NCBI RefSeq assembly: GCF_002591895.1 | Contig: NZ_NISX01000004.1 | Span: 124,001-188,000 of the forward strand | Length of the DNA: 64,000 nt | Origin: Lacimicrobium alkaliphilum | GTDB lineage: Bacteria > Pseudomonadota > Gammaproteobacteria > Enterobacterales > Alteromonadaceae | Reading direction: 5' to 3' | Part shown: positions 1,075 to 57,690 of the stretch, piece after piece | Numbering within the stretch: the stretch's first letter is position 1 | How the letters are laid out: the number at the start of each line of letters is the position of its first letter | Translations under genes and position numbers: made by a program | Notes under the pieces: model-generated | Seen by the model: only the letters and a program-made list of their open reading frames with translations | The model's database searches: none | What the model was told of the DNA's origin: nothing

Positions 1075-2784
1075 ATGCGAAGCAGTCAGTATTTACTATC
1101 AACCAAGAAAGAAACACCAGCGAGCGCGGAAATTATCAGCCATCAGCTGATGATTCGTGCCGGTATGATCCGCAAGCTGGCTTCGGGTATGTATACCTGG
1201 CTCCCCAGCGGGCTCCGGGTACTTAATAAGGTTACCAACATTGTACGTGAAGAAATGGTCAGAGCCGGCGCACTGGAAATTTTGATGCCTATGGTACAGC
1301 CCGCAGACCTGTGGCAGGAATCCGGACGCTGGGACGAGTATGGTCCTGAATTATTGCGTCTTAATGACAGACACAAAAGGGACTTTGTATTAGGCCCTAC
1401 CCATGAGGAAGTGATCACCAATCTGGTAAAACGGGAAGTCAGCAGCTACAAGCAACTGCCCCTTAATCTGTTTCAGATCCAGACCAAGTTCCGCGATGAA
1501 GTCCGTCCCCGTTTTGGTGTGATGCGCAGCCGCGAATTTATCATGAAAGATGCTTATTCTTTCCACCTGACTCAGGAGTCACTGGAAACGTCTTATCAGA
1601 ATATGTTCCGGGCTTACTGTAACATTTTTGAGCGCATTGGCCTCAGCTACCGCCCCGTTATTGCCGACAACGGCTCCATTGGCGGCAGTATGTCACATGA
1701 ATTCCATGTACTGGCCGACTCCGGTGAGGATGCCATTGCCTTCAGTACCGAATCAGACTTTGCAGCCAATGTGGAGATGGCAGAGTTGACCCCCAGCAAC
1801 TCCGCTCCTGATGCTCCGCAGGGTGAAATGCATCTGGTAGAAACACCAAAGGCCACCACCATTGCTGAACTGGTTGAACAATTTCCTGTTGCGGTAGAAA
1901 AAACCGTTAAAACGCTGGTGGTCAAAGCCAGTGATAGTTGTGAAAGTGACCTGATTGCCTTACTGGTTCGCGGTGACCATGAGCTAAATGAAGTGAAAGC
2001 GGAAAAACTAGATCAGGTCGCTGCGCCACTGACCTTTGCCACAGAAGAAGAAATTCGTCGCAGCATTGGCGCCGGCCCGGGATCATTAGGCCCGGTTAAT
2101 TTACCCATTCCCTTTATTATCGATCACAGTGTGGCCAGTATCAGTGATTTTGCCGCAGGGGCCAACATTGATGGTAAGCACTTTTTCAATATTAACTGGC
2201 AACGAGACGTTGAACCCGGAGAAAGCGCAGATATTCGCAATGTACAGGCAGGCGATCCTTCCCCGGATGGCAACGGAGTACTGGAAATTAAACGCGGCAT
2301 CGAAGTGGGCCATATATTCCAGCTTGGTGATAAATATTCTCAGTCAATGAACTGTGGCGTACTGACTGAGTCGGGTAAACACCAGCCTCTGTCTATGGGC
2401 TGCTATGGCATTGGCGTCACGCGCATTGTTGCCGCCGCCATTGAACAGAACCACGACAAGTTCGGTATCACCTGGCCGGATGCCATCGCCCCGTTTAACG
2501 TGGCGATTATTCCCATGAACATGCACAAATCTCATCGTATTCAGGAAGCGGCCAATCAGGTTTACAATCAGTTGCTCGAAGCCGGAATTGACGTTCTGAT
2601 TGATGATCGTAAGGAGCGTCCCGGTGTAATGTTTGCGGACATGGAACTGGTGGGTATCCCTCACCAGATTATCATTGGTGAACGCAACCTTGATGAGGAA
2701 AAGGTGGAGTACAAGAACCGTCGCAGTGGTGAGAAACAACTGATGGCGCTCAACGATATCGTCGGGTTTGTTAAAGGGCTTTAA
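1075..2784 (+). CDS. proS: Prolyl-tRNA synthetase (bacterial type, with editing domain)
   Basis: A class II aminoacyl-tRNA synthetase charging tRNA-Pro. From the ATG at 1075 it has 569 residues and begins [16 protein letters not shown], the usual start of the family; GTG 1066 and ATG 1069 lie in frame just upstream and would add only three or two residues. Motif 1 lies near residues 37-60, motif 2 near 138-165 ([18 protein letters not shown]), motif 3 near 442 ([16 protein letters not shown]). Between motifs 2 and 3 is the roughly 160-residue YbaK-like insertion that deacylates Ala-tRNA-Pro, and the C-terminal 100 residues form the anticodon-binding domain. Upstream at 1038-1056 two GGTACC palindromes flank a short spacer; no clear promoter is recognisable. 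No terminator directly follows. Confidence 0.97.
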
Positions 2785-2870
2785 TCGCGCCCCTCCATCA
2801 GTTTAAAAATGTCGGTTAAAAGCCTAATGTCGGTCAGTTAAGGATACACGACCGTATAGATTGGGGTATA

Positions 2871-3045
2871 GAGAGACATCGACCTCCCTGTCTTTTATGT
2901 CTCTCGTCCCTTCGAGCCAGTTACCTTTGTAAGGACACAAAGGTAACCTAAAAGTCCTTCGCTCAGGACAGCTTTAGCTGGTCTGAAAGGCATTGGGCAG
3001 GGATGCCCAATGCAAAGGTCACTGGCACACCAGGGACGGTGTGTC
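2871..3045. repeat. Cluster of perfect intergenic hairpins downstream of proS
   Basis: Part of the 744-bp gap between proS and the MBL hydrolase, which holds no credible gene. Successive stem-loops are GAGAGACAT/ATGTCTCTC (2871-2905), GTTACCTTTGT/ACAAAGGTAAC with loop AAGGAC (2920-2947), GTCCT/AGGAC (2954-2969), GCATTGGGC/GCCCAATGC with loop AGGGAT (2990-3013) and GGCACACC/GGTGTGTC with loop AGGGAC (3024-3045). The last two share their loop with the 51-bp array that follows. None is followed by a U-tract on the + strand, so they do not look like an ordinary proS terminator. Function unknown. Confidence 0.75.
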
Positions 3046-3099
3046 ATACCAGCAGGGACAGCCAGGTTATCGGCTTGACTGGGAAGCTTGAAGGGGTAT

Positions 3100-3132
3100 A
3101 AAAAATGCCAGTCAGCTTAACTGACTAGCATT
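3100..3132 (-). terminator. Intrinsic-terminator-like hairpin reading on the minus strand
   Basis: The minus strand reads AATGCTAGTCAG, loop TTAAG, CTGACTGGCATT followed by further T residues (six A residues at 3100-3105 on +). The stem is 12 bp with one mismatch. No gene on the minus strand ends here, since both neighbours are on +, so it would stop antisense transcription, or it is a piece of the adjoining repeat element. Confidence 0.45.
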
Positions 3133-3140
3133 AGGTTATA

Positions 3141-3373
3141 ACCTGCACTTCCACCATCCCTGGTGGTCGGCAGGTGAACTGCTCCTGCGTAACCTGCACT
3201 TCCACCATCCCTGGTGGTCGGCAGGTGAACTGCTCCTGCGTAACCTGCACTTCCGCCATCCCTGGCGGTCGGCAGGTGAACTGCTCCTGCGTAACCTGCA
3301 CTTCCGCCATCCCTGGCGGTCGGCAGGTGAACTGCTCCTGCGTAACCTGCACTTCCGCCATCCCTGGCGGTCG
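3141..3373. repeat. 51-bp tandem repeat array, 4 full units plus a partial fifth
   Basis: Units begin ACCTGCACTTCC at 3141, 3192, 3243, 3294 and 3345, an exact 51-bp period, with no unique spacers. Each unit carries two inverted repeats. The first has loop ATCCCT (AGGGAT on the minus strand) and stems CCACC/GGTGG in units 1-2 but CCGCC/GGCGG in units 3-5, a paired substitution. The second is GCAGG/CCTGC. After the last unit a further inverted repeat TATTCCGG/CCGGAATA spans 3374-3429. Because 51 is divisible by three, frames stay open on both strands through the array, giving spurious 17-residue repeat proteins. Related modules recur at 25410-25510 and 57539-57690. Confidence 0.9.
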
Positions 3374-3528
3374 TATTCCGGAGTGTTCGGGAACGTCTCT
3401 CAGGGGATATACAGATATTCCCCGGAATATACCTGACAAAAGCTGATCGCACATCCATGATGCTGTAACTTATACTGTTATAAACAGATAGATTCGATTT
3501 TGAGATTGGCGGCAGGTCAGATAAGAAT

Positions 3529-4386
3529 ATGAAATTAACCTTTTATGGTGTCCGGGGTTCAGTGCCCACGCCGGGGCCCGAGTACATCCGCTACGGCGGT
3601 AATACTGCCTGCGTACACATTGAACTGGCTGACGGCACGGATATTATTCTCGATGCCGGAACAGGGATCCGCAGCCTGGGTAAAAAGCTGATCAAACAGC
3701 AAGGCGATATTTATTTGTTACTGACCCACAATCATTGGGATCATATTCAGGGGTTTCCCTTCTTTGCCCCTATTTATGAACCTGACAGAAATATTTATAT
3801 CACCCCGGGGCAAACCTCTCCGGATGCGCCCAATGCCATTCTGGAGCAAATGAGCGGCAGTTATTTCCCGGTAGATTATCAGACTCTGCCCGCCAATATT
3901 GTTATCCAGTCGATTCCGGACAACACCTCTGCCTGGTCCATTAACAGTGCCACCATTACCCGGAATAAAATGAACCACCCGGGCAATGGCAGTGCATTTT
4001 TAATTGAGGCTGACAATACACGGGTTGCCTATATCACCGACAATGAACTTTATCCTCCCTATAAGAAAACCACAGATTTTATGGATTGGGTCAGTTTTGC
4101 CAAAGACGCCGACCTGATAATCCATGATGCGCAGTATATGCTGTCGGATATGCCGAAAAAATCGGGTTGGGGCCATTCTGTTGCAGAAGAAGCCGTCAAA
4201 CTGGCGATGGCCTGCCAGGCTAAACGTCTGGCGTTATACAGCCACGACGAGATCCGTACCGATGACGAGATTGAAGCACTGGAGCGCCACTGCCAGGACG
4301 TCATTGAAATCGGACAGATGGACCTGCAACTCTTTGCCGCTGCAGAAGGGATCTGCATCGACTTTGATACCAACCCTTCTGCATAA
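3529..4386 (+). CDS. MBL-fold metallo-hydrolase
   Basis: A 285-residue metallo-beta-lactamase-fold hydrolase, apparently cytoplasmic (no signal peptide). The N-terminus MKLTFYGVRGSVPTPGPE with RYGGNTAC is typical of the RNase Z/PhnP/cyclic-phosphodiesterase-like branch rather than of lactamases. The metal motif HxHxDH is THNHWDH at residues 67-72; further likely ligands are His150 (MNHPGNG), Asp171 (YITDNE) and His239 (YSHDE). The substrate cannot be told from sequence; phosphodiester hydrolysis is the commonest chemistry of this branch. The ATG follows an AGATAAGA purine stretch. A terminator-like hairpin lies just after the stop, so it is probably a single-gene unit. Confidence 0.85.
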   Translation: MKLTFYGVRGSVPTPGPEYIRYGGNTACVHIELADGTDIILDAGTGIRSLGKKLIKQQGDIYLLLTHNHWDHIQGFPFFAPIYEPDRNIYITPGQTSPDAPNAILEQMSGSYFPVDYQTLPANIVIQSIPDNTSAWSINSATITRNKMNHPGNGSAFLIEADNTRVAYITDNELYPPYKKTTDFMDWVSFAKDADLIIHDAQYMLSDMPKKSGWGHSVAEEAVKLAMACQAKRLALYSHDEIRTDDEIEALERHCQDVIEIGQMDLQLFAAAEGICIDFDTNPSA

Positions 4387-25409: not shown

Positions 25410-25510
25410 GCCGAAGTGGTTTTCCCGACAACTTCGGCATACCGTCCGTCCCTGGACATCGCCGAAGAAAGGTTCCCGACAACTTCGGCATACCGTCCGT
25501 CCCTGGACAT
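25410..25510. repeat. Two-unit 51-bp hairpin repeat downstream of the tsf terminator
   Basis: On the minus strand each 51-bp unit starts ATGTCCAGGGACGGACGG. It contains GTCC, loop AGGGAC, GGAC (at 25495-25508 and 25444-25457) and a second stem GCCGAAG/CTTCGGC (25461-25489 and 25410-25438). The first unit begins at the base after the terminator U-tract. Stems differ from those of the arrays at 3141 and 57539 while the loops and period agree. The frame encodes a 17-residue repeat, MSRDGRYAEVVGN..., which I do not regard as a gene. Confidence 0.9.
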
Positions 25511-25536
25511 AAAAAAGCACCCCTTAAAGAGGTGCT
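25511..25536 (-). terminator. Intrinsic terminator after tsf
   Basis: Minus strand AGCACCTCT, loop TTA, AGGGGTGCT followed by six T residues; nine positions in the stem with one mismatch. It lies 105 bases after the tsf stop. A consensus TATAAT (25545-25540, minus) sits immediately before the stem. Confidence 0.85.
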
Positions 25537-27347: not shown

Positions 27348-27519
27348 AATTTTTCCTTATGGGGTTAGGCCTCCATATATCCCAGTTGTCGATCTGATCT
27401 ACGTCAGACACCCCGAAAACTGTGTCGATATATGTGTGTGATTAAATAGTAACGTTTAAGCGAATTATGCCTGTTGATTGAACGAGGCTTAATTTGCGGG
27501 CGGCTTTATACCATAGACA

Positions 27520-57538: not shown

Positions 57539-57690
57539 ATGTCCATGGATGGACGGTATGCCGGAAATGTCGGGAACATTTTTCCGGCGATGTCCATGGA
57601 TGGACGGGCAGGTAATTGCTCCTGCATAACCTGCACTTCCGCCTTCCCTGGCGGTCGTATGCCGGGGTTGCAGGGAGCATTCCCCGGCGA
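57539..57690. repeat. Composite 51-bp-family hairpin repeat in the rplI 3' region
   Basis: Starts ATGTCCATGGATGGACGG directly after the terminator T-run. Hairpins in order: GTCC/GGAC with loop ATGGAT (57541-57554), GCCGGAAA/TTTCCGGC (57560-57588), GTCC/GGAC again 51 bases on (57592-57605), GCAGG/CCTGC and the CCGCC/GGCGG hairpin with minus-strand loop AGGGAA (57639-57654), and GCCGGGG/CCCCGGC (57661-57688). The middle part is the module of the 3141 array, the ends are the module of the 25410 array, so this locus joins both types. Confidence 0.88.

Follow-up and report, generated by a model that had tools for sequence, protein, structure and literature searches.

The neisserial Correia, pneumococcal BOX and rickettsial RPE elements are modular, mobile palindromic repeats that form hairpins; BOX elements contain central modules in tandem, and RPE insert in frame into genes. 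No loop rule is known to us as a feature of these three families, and the repeat described here resembles them in being modular, mobile and hairpin-forming. Canonical REPs are described as carrying a GTAG or GTGG tetranucleotide 0–2 nt 5′ of the hairpin (PMC6006769), and PMC2817692, which describes BIMEs, notes selection for complementary mutations. For RNA hairpins, the high-affinity site of RsmE/CsrA is described as a stem topped by an ANGGAX hexaloop, pentaloops of AGGGA or AAGGA being strong sites too (PMC4005645), and CANGGANG hexaloops together with an optimal intersite distance of 18 nt are reported in PMC4894983.

The repeat reported here lies in a window of 64,000 nucleotides from Lacimicrobium alkaliphilum (contig NZ_NISX01000004.1, positions 124,001 to 188,000). 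It is BIME-like in layout and Csr antagonist RNA-like in loop design, and it qualifies as a member of neither group. Similarly to REPs and BIMEs with RAYT, it consists of conserved intergenic palindromes in many copies, which alternate in orientation within composite clusters, are kept via complementary changes and are amplified in tandem. It differs from them in that it is without the GT[AG]G foot, has a conserved loop on variable stems, and occurs in 11 carrier genomes (of 35 tested) without a Y1_Tnp match. A canonical REP, equipped with a Y1 transposase gene, is present as a separate entity in the same genome. Similarly to CsrB/CsrC/RsmX/Y/Z/W (CL00106), it forms arrays of stem-loops with repeated GGA in the loops (ANGGAX, NNGGA or related), presents paired sites at a dimer-compatible spacing, and has stems that are not conserved in sequence; unlike these RNAs, it is dispersed in multiple copies and both orientations, it scores below the listed Rfam gathering scores, and a search for a sigma-70-like promoter on the minus strand at 2700–3600, that is, on the GGA strand of the array, found none. 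Among the titles and abstract openings listed in searches of open-licence literature, none describes a dispersed GGA-loop repeat. Taken together, our results indicate that the repeat is mobile, BIME-like and selected for its hairpins, and that it is probably a CsrA-type site; this last step is one that we infer, and the evidence from orientation is mixed.

A paired substitution in a 51-bp tandem array

In the window, TRF reports a repeat with a period of 51, 4.6 copies and 98% matches, which confirms the array of the original prediction and moves its start from 3141 to 3139 (Table 1). Compared unit by unit, unit 1 equals unit 2, unit 3 equals unit 4, and unit 5, which spans 31 bases, agrees with unit 4 throughout. 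The two types of unit differ solely at two positions 11 bases apart, with A at offset 14 and T at offset 25 in units 1 and 2 against G and C, respectively, in units 3 to 5. These two offsets pair in the predicted hairpin CCRCC-ATCCCT-GGYGG (hairpin C). The claim that both arms changed together in an otherwise identical 51-bp unit is therefore exact by unit alignment; a second hairpin in the unit, GCAGGT...ACCTGC (hairpin B), had gone unmentioned.

The stretch 3139–3190 folds with a z of −3.14, and two of 200 shuffles fold equally well. By simple arithmetic, the chance that two random substitutions hit one of 15 pairs and compensate each other is ~0.004. Because units 1–2 and units 3–5 are copies, the array records one paired event only, so that the coordinated change is real as a single event and not as a recurrent one; taken alone, it is suggestive, short of conclusive. 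The unit is open in three listed frames, and in each of them one of the two substitutions changes the encoded residue and the other is silent. A protein-coding array was judged unlikely.

The array is flanked by the genes for a proline–tRNA ligase (1066–2784) and an MBL-fold hydrolase-like protein (3529–4386; weak RNase Z model matches, all under cut-off), both on the plus strand, and its GGA strand is antisense to both. The MBL-fold hydrolase is 86% identical in Lacimicrobium sp. SS2-24, the nearest named relative found. In this relative, the syntenic gap matches the window up to 2784 and then from 3405, with one additional 19-base match at chance level; the array is missing from this gap, making the stretch lineage-specific.

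Next to the array, at 2859–3110, lies a copy of a second dispersed element of ~600 bp with GGA- or TCC-loop hairpins on unrelated stems, which is also present in L203, L205 and other loci. The window copy looks internally deleted; in the L203 copy, six of nine distinct hairpins in the 1 kb examined have a GGA or TCC loop. Among the 34 hairpins in the window with a hexaloop and a stem of at least 6 bp, only three have an ANGGAX loop; all three belong to this ~600-bp element, at 2920–3043, adjoining the array.

Table 1. Features of the array, its neighbourhood and other copies in the window
Feature	Position	Strand	Basis
11-bp hairpin, AAGGAC loop (ANGGAX), neighbouring dispersed element	2920–2947	+	
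9-bp hairpin, AGGGAT loop (ANGGAX), unrelated stem	2990–3013	+	
6-bp hairpin, AGGGAC loop (ANGGAX), unrelated stem	3026–3043	+	
Terminator-like hairpin with T run, immediately beyond the array in minus-strand reading; belongs to another dispersed repeat	3104–3132	-	
51-bp tandem array, 4.6 units; GGA-loop strand is minus	3139–3373	-	TRF, unit alignment
Hairpin C, unit 1; A/T pair 3153 + 3164, minus-strand loop AGGGAT	3151–3166	-	
Hairpin B between units 1 and 2; stem GCAGGT/ACCTGC, minus-strand loop AGGA	3170–3197	-	
Hairpin C, unit 2; A/T pair 3204 + 3215	3202–3217	-	
Hairpin C, unit 3; G/C pair 3255 + 3266	3253–3268	-	
Hairpin C, unit 4; G/C pair 3306 + 3317	3304–3319	-	
Hairpin C, unit 5; G/C pair 3357 + 3368	3355–3370	-	
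Further hairpin B copies in the array	3221–3248, 3272–3299, 3323–3350	-	
Third site: two P-A units after a T run	25422–25516	-	
Second composite copy: P-A-P, inverted B-C (57604–57658), A; directly after a terminator-like T run	57539–57690	+	

Hairpin stems are conserved as pairing, not as sequence

Three alignments of copies were analysed. A1 comprises 37 copies aligned with no structure model; 12 of 49 candidates were left out, i.e. one identical unit, units without hairpin B or with an interrupted one, a truncated copy, and chance matches. A2 comprises 90 distinct copies, mostly from the order, at 61 chosen loci that are a subset of the listed places, and A3 comprises 29 distinct copies found elsewhere in the class, none of them used for training; 20 of the 36 carrier genomes contributed one stretch each to A3. 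The copies in A2 and A3 were found with the model and fitted to it, whereas no model was fitted to those in A1. Of 92 rows, only three contain a gap in the arms of hairpin C.

At the pair formed by offsets 14 and 25, A1 contains 33 G-C and four A-T pairs. In A2, the same pair is G-C in 49 copies, A-U in 16, U-A in 14, C-G in five, and G-U and U-G in one each, with two copies unpaired and two gapped; in A3, it is G-C in 21 copies, A-U in two, C-G in two and G-U in one, with two unpaired and one gapped. Frequent single-arm variants, which would speak against selection for pairing, were not observed (0 of 37 in A1, where no copy is unpaired; two unpaired of 88 in A2).

Over the whole structure, the covariation scores of A1, A2 and A3 were 0.210, 0.432 and 0.343, respectively, against shuffled means of 0.113, 0.150 and 0.136, and in each alignment none of 500 shuffles reached the real score. 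The maxima of the slid controls (0.105, 0.095 and 0.075) were likewise all under it. On two lesser measures, shuffles were as high in 56 of 500 cases for further pair types in A1 and in 20 of 500 for pairs changed on both sides in A2; the cell counts of pair types represent non-independent events. Covariation above all shuffles and slid controls in three sets supports selection for pairing across the family, for which the array alone had been insufficient, and in this form the original prediction holds. We conclude that the hairpin stems are conserved as pairing and not as sequence, and that the paired substitution in the array is compensatory helix evolution. Complementary mutations in REPs are already noted in PMC2817692, so palindromic repeats can be expected to show paired substitutions; the less expected part is a fixed CsrA-type loop across a class.

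Dispersal, modules and loops of the repeat

Used as a DNA query against its own genome, the window region 3100–3420 matched 27 places, comprising the array itself, 19 matches to array units, and seven others that match only the neighbouring terminator-like hairpin and not the units; a composite copy as query gave 63 matches at a lax threshold. A covariance model of B-C (R1), built from 37 copies, gave 41 matches in the genome at E ≤ 1 and 27 at E < 1e-5. With the own genome counted, it matched 58 of 197 genomes in the order sample at E ≤ 0.01 (27 of 80 genera) and 36 of 197 at E ≤ 1e-4, and, in a sample of the class (Gammaproteobacteria), 36 of 274 genomes and 31 of 222 genera at E ≤ 1e-4. The composite element was unmatched in the plasmids and phages searched.

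In addition to the inverted pair B-C, the element includes a module P (GTCC-ANGGAX-GGAC) and a module A with a variable stem and an NNGGA-type loop. B-C has the two-hairpin design of P-A on the opposite strand, and some P-A units weakly match the B-C model on the opposite strand (e.g. L006 1430–1485, E 0.0003). In the composite element, the order is P-A-P, inverted B-C and A-P, located directly after a terminator T run or another A hairpin. Counted by eye among the 28 P units listed for the own genome, a T run precedes 12 and an A hairpin another 12; the remaining four are elsewhere, one of these in another REP. The last unit of the array continues into the longer element found elsewhere in the genome, showing that the array arose by tandem expansion of a single module of this dispersed, palindromic, BIME-like repeat.

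Mobility of the repeat is well supported. The repeat is inserted into another REP at CTTTA (L133, L015/L145), in some genomes, such as G471, many copies of the unit have equal scores, and the site of the array in the window is lineage-specific; the in-frame copies in tsaD described below point the same way. In a separate set of observations, hairpin B is broken in four loci (L003, L007, L008, L035) by an insert of ~75–80 nt, judged by eye, that holds two GGA-loop hairpins on the other strand, e.g. ATGGA and AGGGAG in L008. A two-hairpin unit also lies in frame within tsaD of two genomes (L175 in G040 and L181 in G137; minus strand, ~1501–1556), leaving the reading frame intact; tsaD was called by NCBIfam TIGR03723 in L181 and by the similar translation in L175. 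This in-frame repeat recalls the Rickettsia palindromic elements that insert in genes. Unit copies are also found ~640–730 bp downstream of csrA in two genomes that share a genus (G222:C26:77259–77312 and G085:C1:2128266–2128314).

On the GGA strand, the loop of hairpin C reads A-N-GGA-X. Among 87 six-base loops, mostly from copies in the order, 86 have the A, and the GGA positions match in 86, 84 and 87, respectively; all four bases occur at N and X. In the class set, the A is present in 29 of 30 loops (one gap) and the GGA positions are kept in 30, 29 and 30 of 30. The A–T pair that closes the loop is unpaired in 21 of 88 copies in A2, with the fixed A retained: the base opposite the A changes freely, and the A is therefore kept for itself and not for pairing, as fits a hexaloop and not a longer stem. 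In 79 of 81 copies of hairpin B, nine gapped rows being set aside, GGA lies within the loop if the closing pair is counted as part of it. The distance from GGA to GGA was measured in 35 of the 37 copies: 24 have 22 nt, 10 have 23 nt and one has 15 nt.

Because the conservation of loops among copies found by a model arises partly by construction, hairpins outside the modelled units were surveyed as well. Among hexaloop hairpins with a stem of at least 4 bp, on either strand, the ANGGAX loop was present in 10 of 50 in 20 class loci against 26 of 2509 in 80 background loci (Fisher 5.5e-10), some of the 10 being P modules of the same composite element. The numbers for longer stems are small and lean the same way, with 3 of 22 against 7 of 745 in the background for stems of at least 5 bp and 2 of 13 against 3 of 252 for stems of at least 6 bp.

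At a lax threshold, the Rfam matches in the window region 2780–3530 include TwoAYGGAY (score 19.1, gathering 43), RsmW (16.1, gathering 52) and RsmY (12.3, gathering 57), and three of the four matches in this region fall in the Csr/Rsm clan. In nine further loci, two of 19 lax matches do so (CsrC, 14.3 and gathering 61; TwoAYGGAY, 24.2 and gathering 43), and in 20 loci of other genomes none of 44. These matches are a hint only and do not amount to membership. TwoAYGGAY (RF01731), described as predicted to bind CsrA (PMC4333381), is similar in having two hairpins with AYGGAY-type loops; its weak match, on the plus strand at 2990–3050, falls on the neighbouring element and not on the array. The only match at gathering level in the window (cmscan) is a t44 RNA at 27364–27456 on the minus strand.

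Possible CsrA sites or DNA hairpins

In our working model, pairing would be maintained because each module displays GGA in two loops of one strand, mostly 22–23 nt apart. The main ANGGAX loop on its stem would correspond to the form that CsrA/RsmE dimers bind with high affinity, and CsrA would bind transcripts that include the repeat. The repeat may spread as a non-autonomous mobile element with a preference for TTTA at terminator ends; later duplication of units would have enlarged the array. As a whole, this combination of a compensated dispersed module, two GGA loops serving as CsrA sites and mobile spread into TTTA sites is a tentative reading to which we give close to an even chance. In agreement with it, 26 of the 28 P hairpins have an upstream gene on the same strand by mechanical calls, and the other two are without a called gene. 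CsrA was found in all of 24 carrier genomes chosen for testing. Given that CsrA is near universal in the class, its presence in carriers is weak evidence. Against CsrA, the orientation of B-C shows no bias, with the GGA strand in the sense direction of the upstream gene at 7 of 15 loci, and in the 23S–5S spacers of two genomes the transcribed, rRNA-sense strand bears TCC and not GGA. Either decoys are counter-selected at these spacers or the TCC orientation suggests that the repeat does not act through RNA. The spacer copies lie at 137–192 of L221 (G109) and 106–160 of L229 (G196); in G109, five matches share the same score, presumably reflecting one copy in each operon. Counts of wobble pairs, compared between the strands as a strand test, were 54 against 30 in A2, with the excess largely in the two outermost pairs, and 12 against 15 in A3. 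A broader proposal is that class-wide mobile double-hairpin repeats are portable CsrA/RsmA sites inserted at the ends of transcription units, in which stems diversify while ANGGAX is kept, and in which copy number and tandem amplification would tune free CsrA or the control of new transcripts by CsrA; we offer this as speculation that is, at present, rather unlikely to hold.

Alternatively, the repeat may act at the level of DNA only, its hairpins being recognised as single strands by a transposase or another DNA-processing protein, so that the need to fold for movement would be the sole reason for keeping the pairing and any effect on RNA would be incidental. This is a distinct possibility, if a less than likely one. 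It is consistent with units in both orientations within composite elements, as in BIMEs, with insertion at a preferred TTTA site beside terminators and within another REP, with the many equal-score copies in G471, with the TCC orientation in the two rRNA spacers, and with Y1_Tnp being matched in 10 of 11 genomes of the class that had been selected largely for a high copy number or for strong matches. It predicts neither the ANGGAX loops nor the near-constant spacing of 22–23 nt, however, and GTAG or GTGG, sought on both strands up to 6 nt from each hairpin, was present at none of the 37 copies, on any of the four hairpin sides. Moreover, a cognate Y1 transposase was sought among chosen carriers, and Y1_Tnp was unmatched in 10 of 24 and in 1 of 11; the three Y1_Tnp loci of the own genome are without the repeat within ~1.5 kb on each side. 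A REP-like transposase is possible in some lineages, as 24 of the 35 carriers have Y1_Tnp. Two further observations concern Y1 transposase loci of the own genome: at L011 (G000:C34:209586–212909), a canonical REP cluster (GTAGGTCGGACTTTAGTCCGAC) flanks a Y1 transposase frame of 167 codons, and the GGA element is inserted into other copies of this type of REP; at L010 (G000:C7:7525–10860), a Y1_Tnp gene lies by two apparent tandem tRNA genes with inverted GTCGTAGTTAATTA flanks, judged by eye.

The remaining explanations concern the array itself. It might be a CsrB-like sRNA gene on the minus strand, with nine GGA hairpins and its own terminator, as its five C and four B hairpins in 235 nt, the terminator-like hairpin directly downstream and the sub-threshold RsmW and RsmY matches, all on the minus strand, might suggest. 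We consider this highly improbable: no promoter-like site was found on that strand, the CsrB family gave no match at E ≤ 10 in a search of the genome that scored 103 of 139 candidates, the terminator-like hairpin is part of another dispersed repeat, and the region is missing from SS2-24. The original prediction also allowed for hairpin-templated repair. In a purely mutational form of it, quasi-palindrome correction would copy a change from one arm to the other and the array would be homogenised without selection. Such a correction yields a paired change in one step, in keeping with an array that holds no single-arm intermediate, and for this single event it is possible; a CCACC/GGTGG donor is found among none of the other copies detected in the genome. 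If rampant, it should mend the pair next to the loop, and yet this pair stays unpaired in 21 of 88 copies with one partner fixed; a mutational process also leaves the conserved loops unexplained, and all four Watson–Crick types are present at the pair of offsets 14 and 25. We regard templated correction as an improbable source of the pattern. A chance pair of substitutions in an unselected tandem repeat would suit a single event in the array, for which the arithmetic gives ~0.004, but covariation in three alignments, with a score that 0 of 500 shuffles reach, makes it next to negligible.

Even without CsrA, the repeat represents a palindromic family defined by its loop, not by foot or stem, and present also in genomes without a detected Y1 transposase. 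This is a misfit with the canonical definition of REPs. The family also provides a sensitive covariation data set for counting paired against single-arm changes. If the loops are CsrA sites, the repeat would directly connect mobile DNA with a regulator that acts globally and post-transcriptionally, and it would help to explain how Csr antagonist RNAs conserve structure and not sequence and why they seemingly arise repeatedly.
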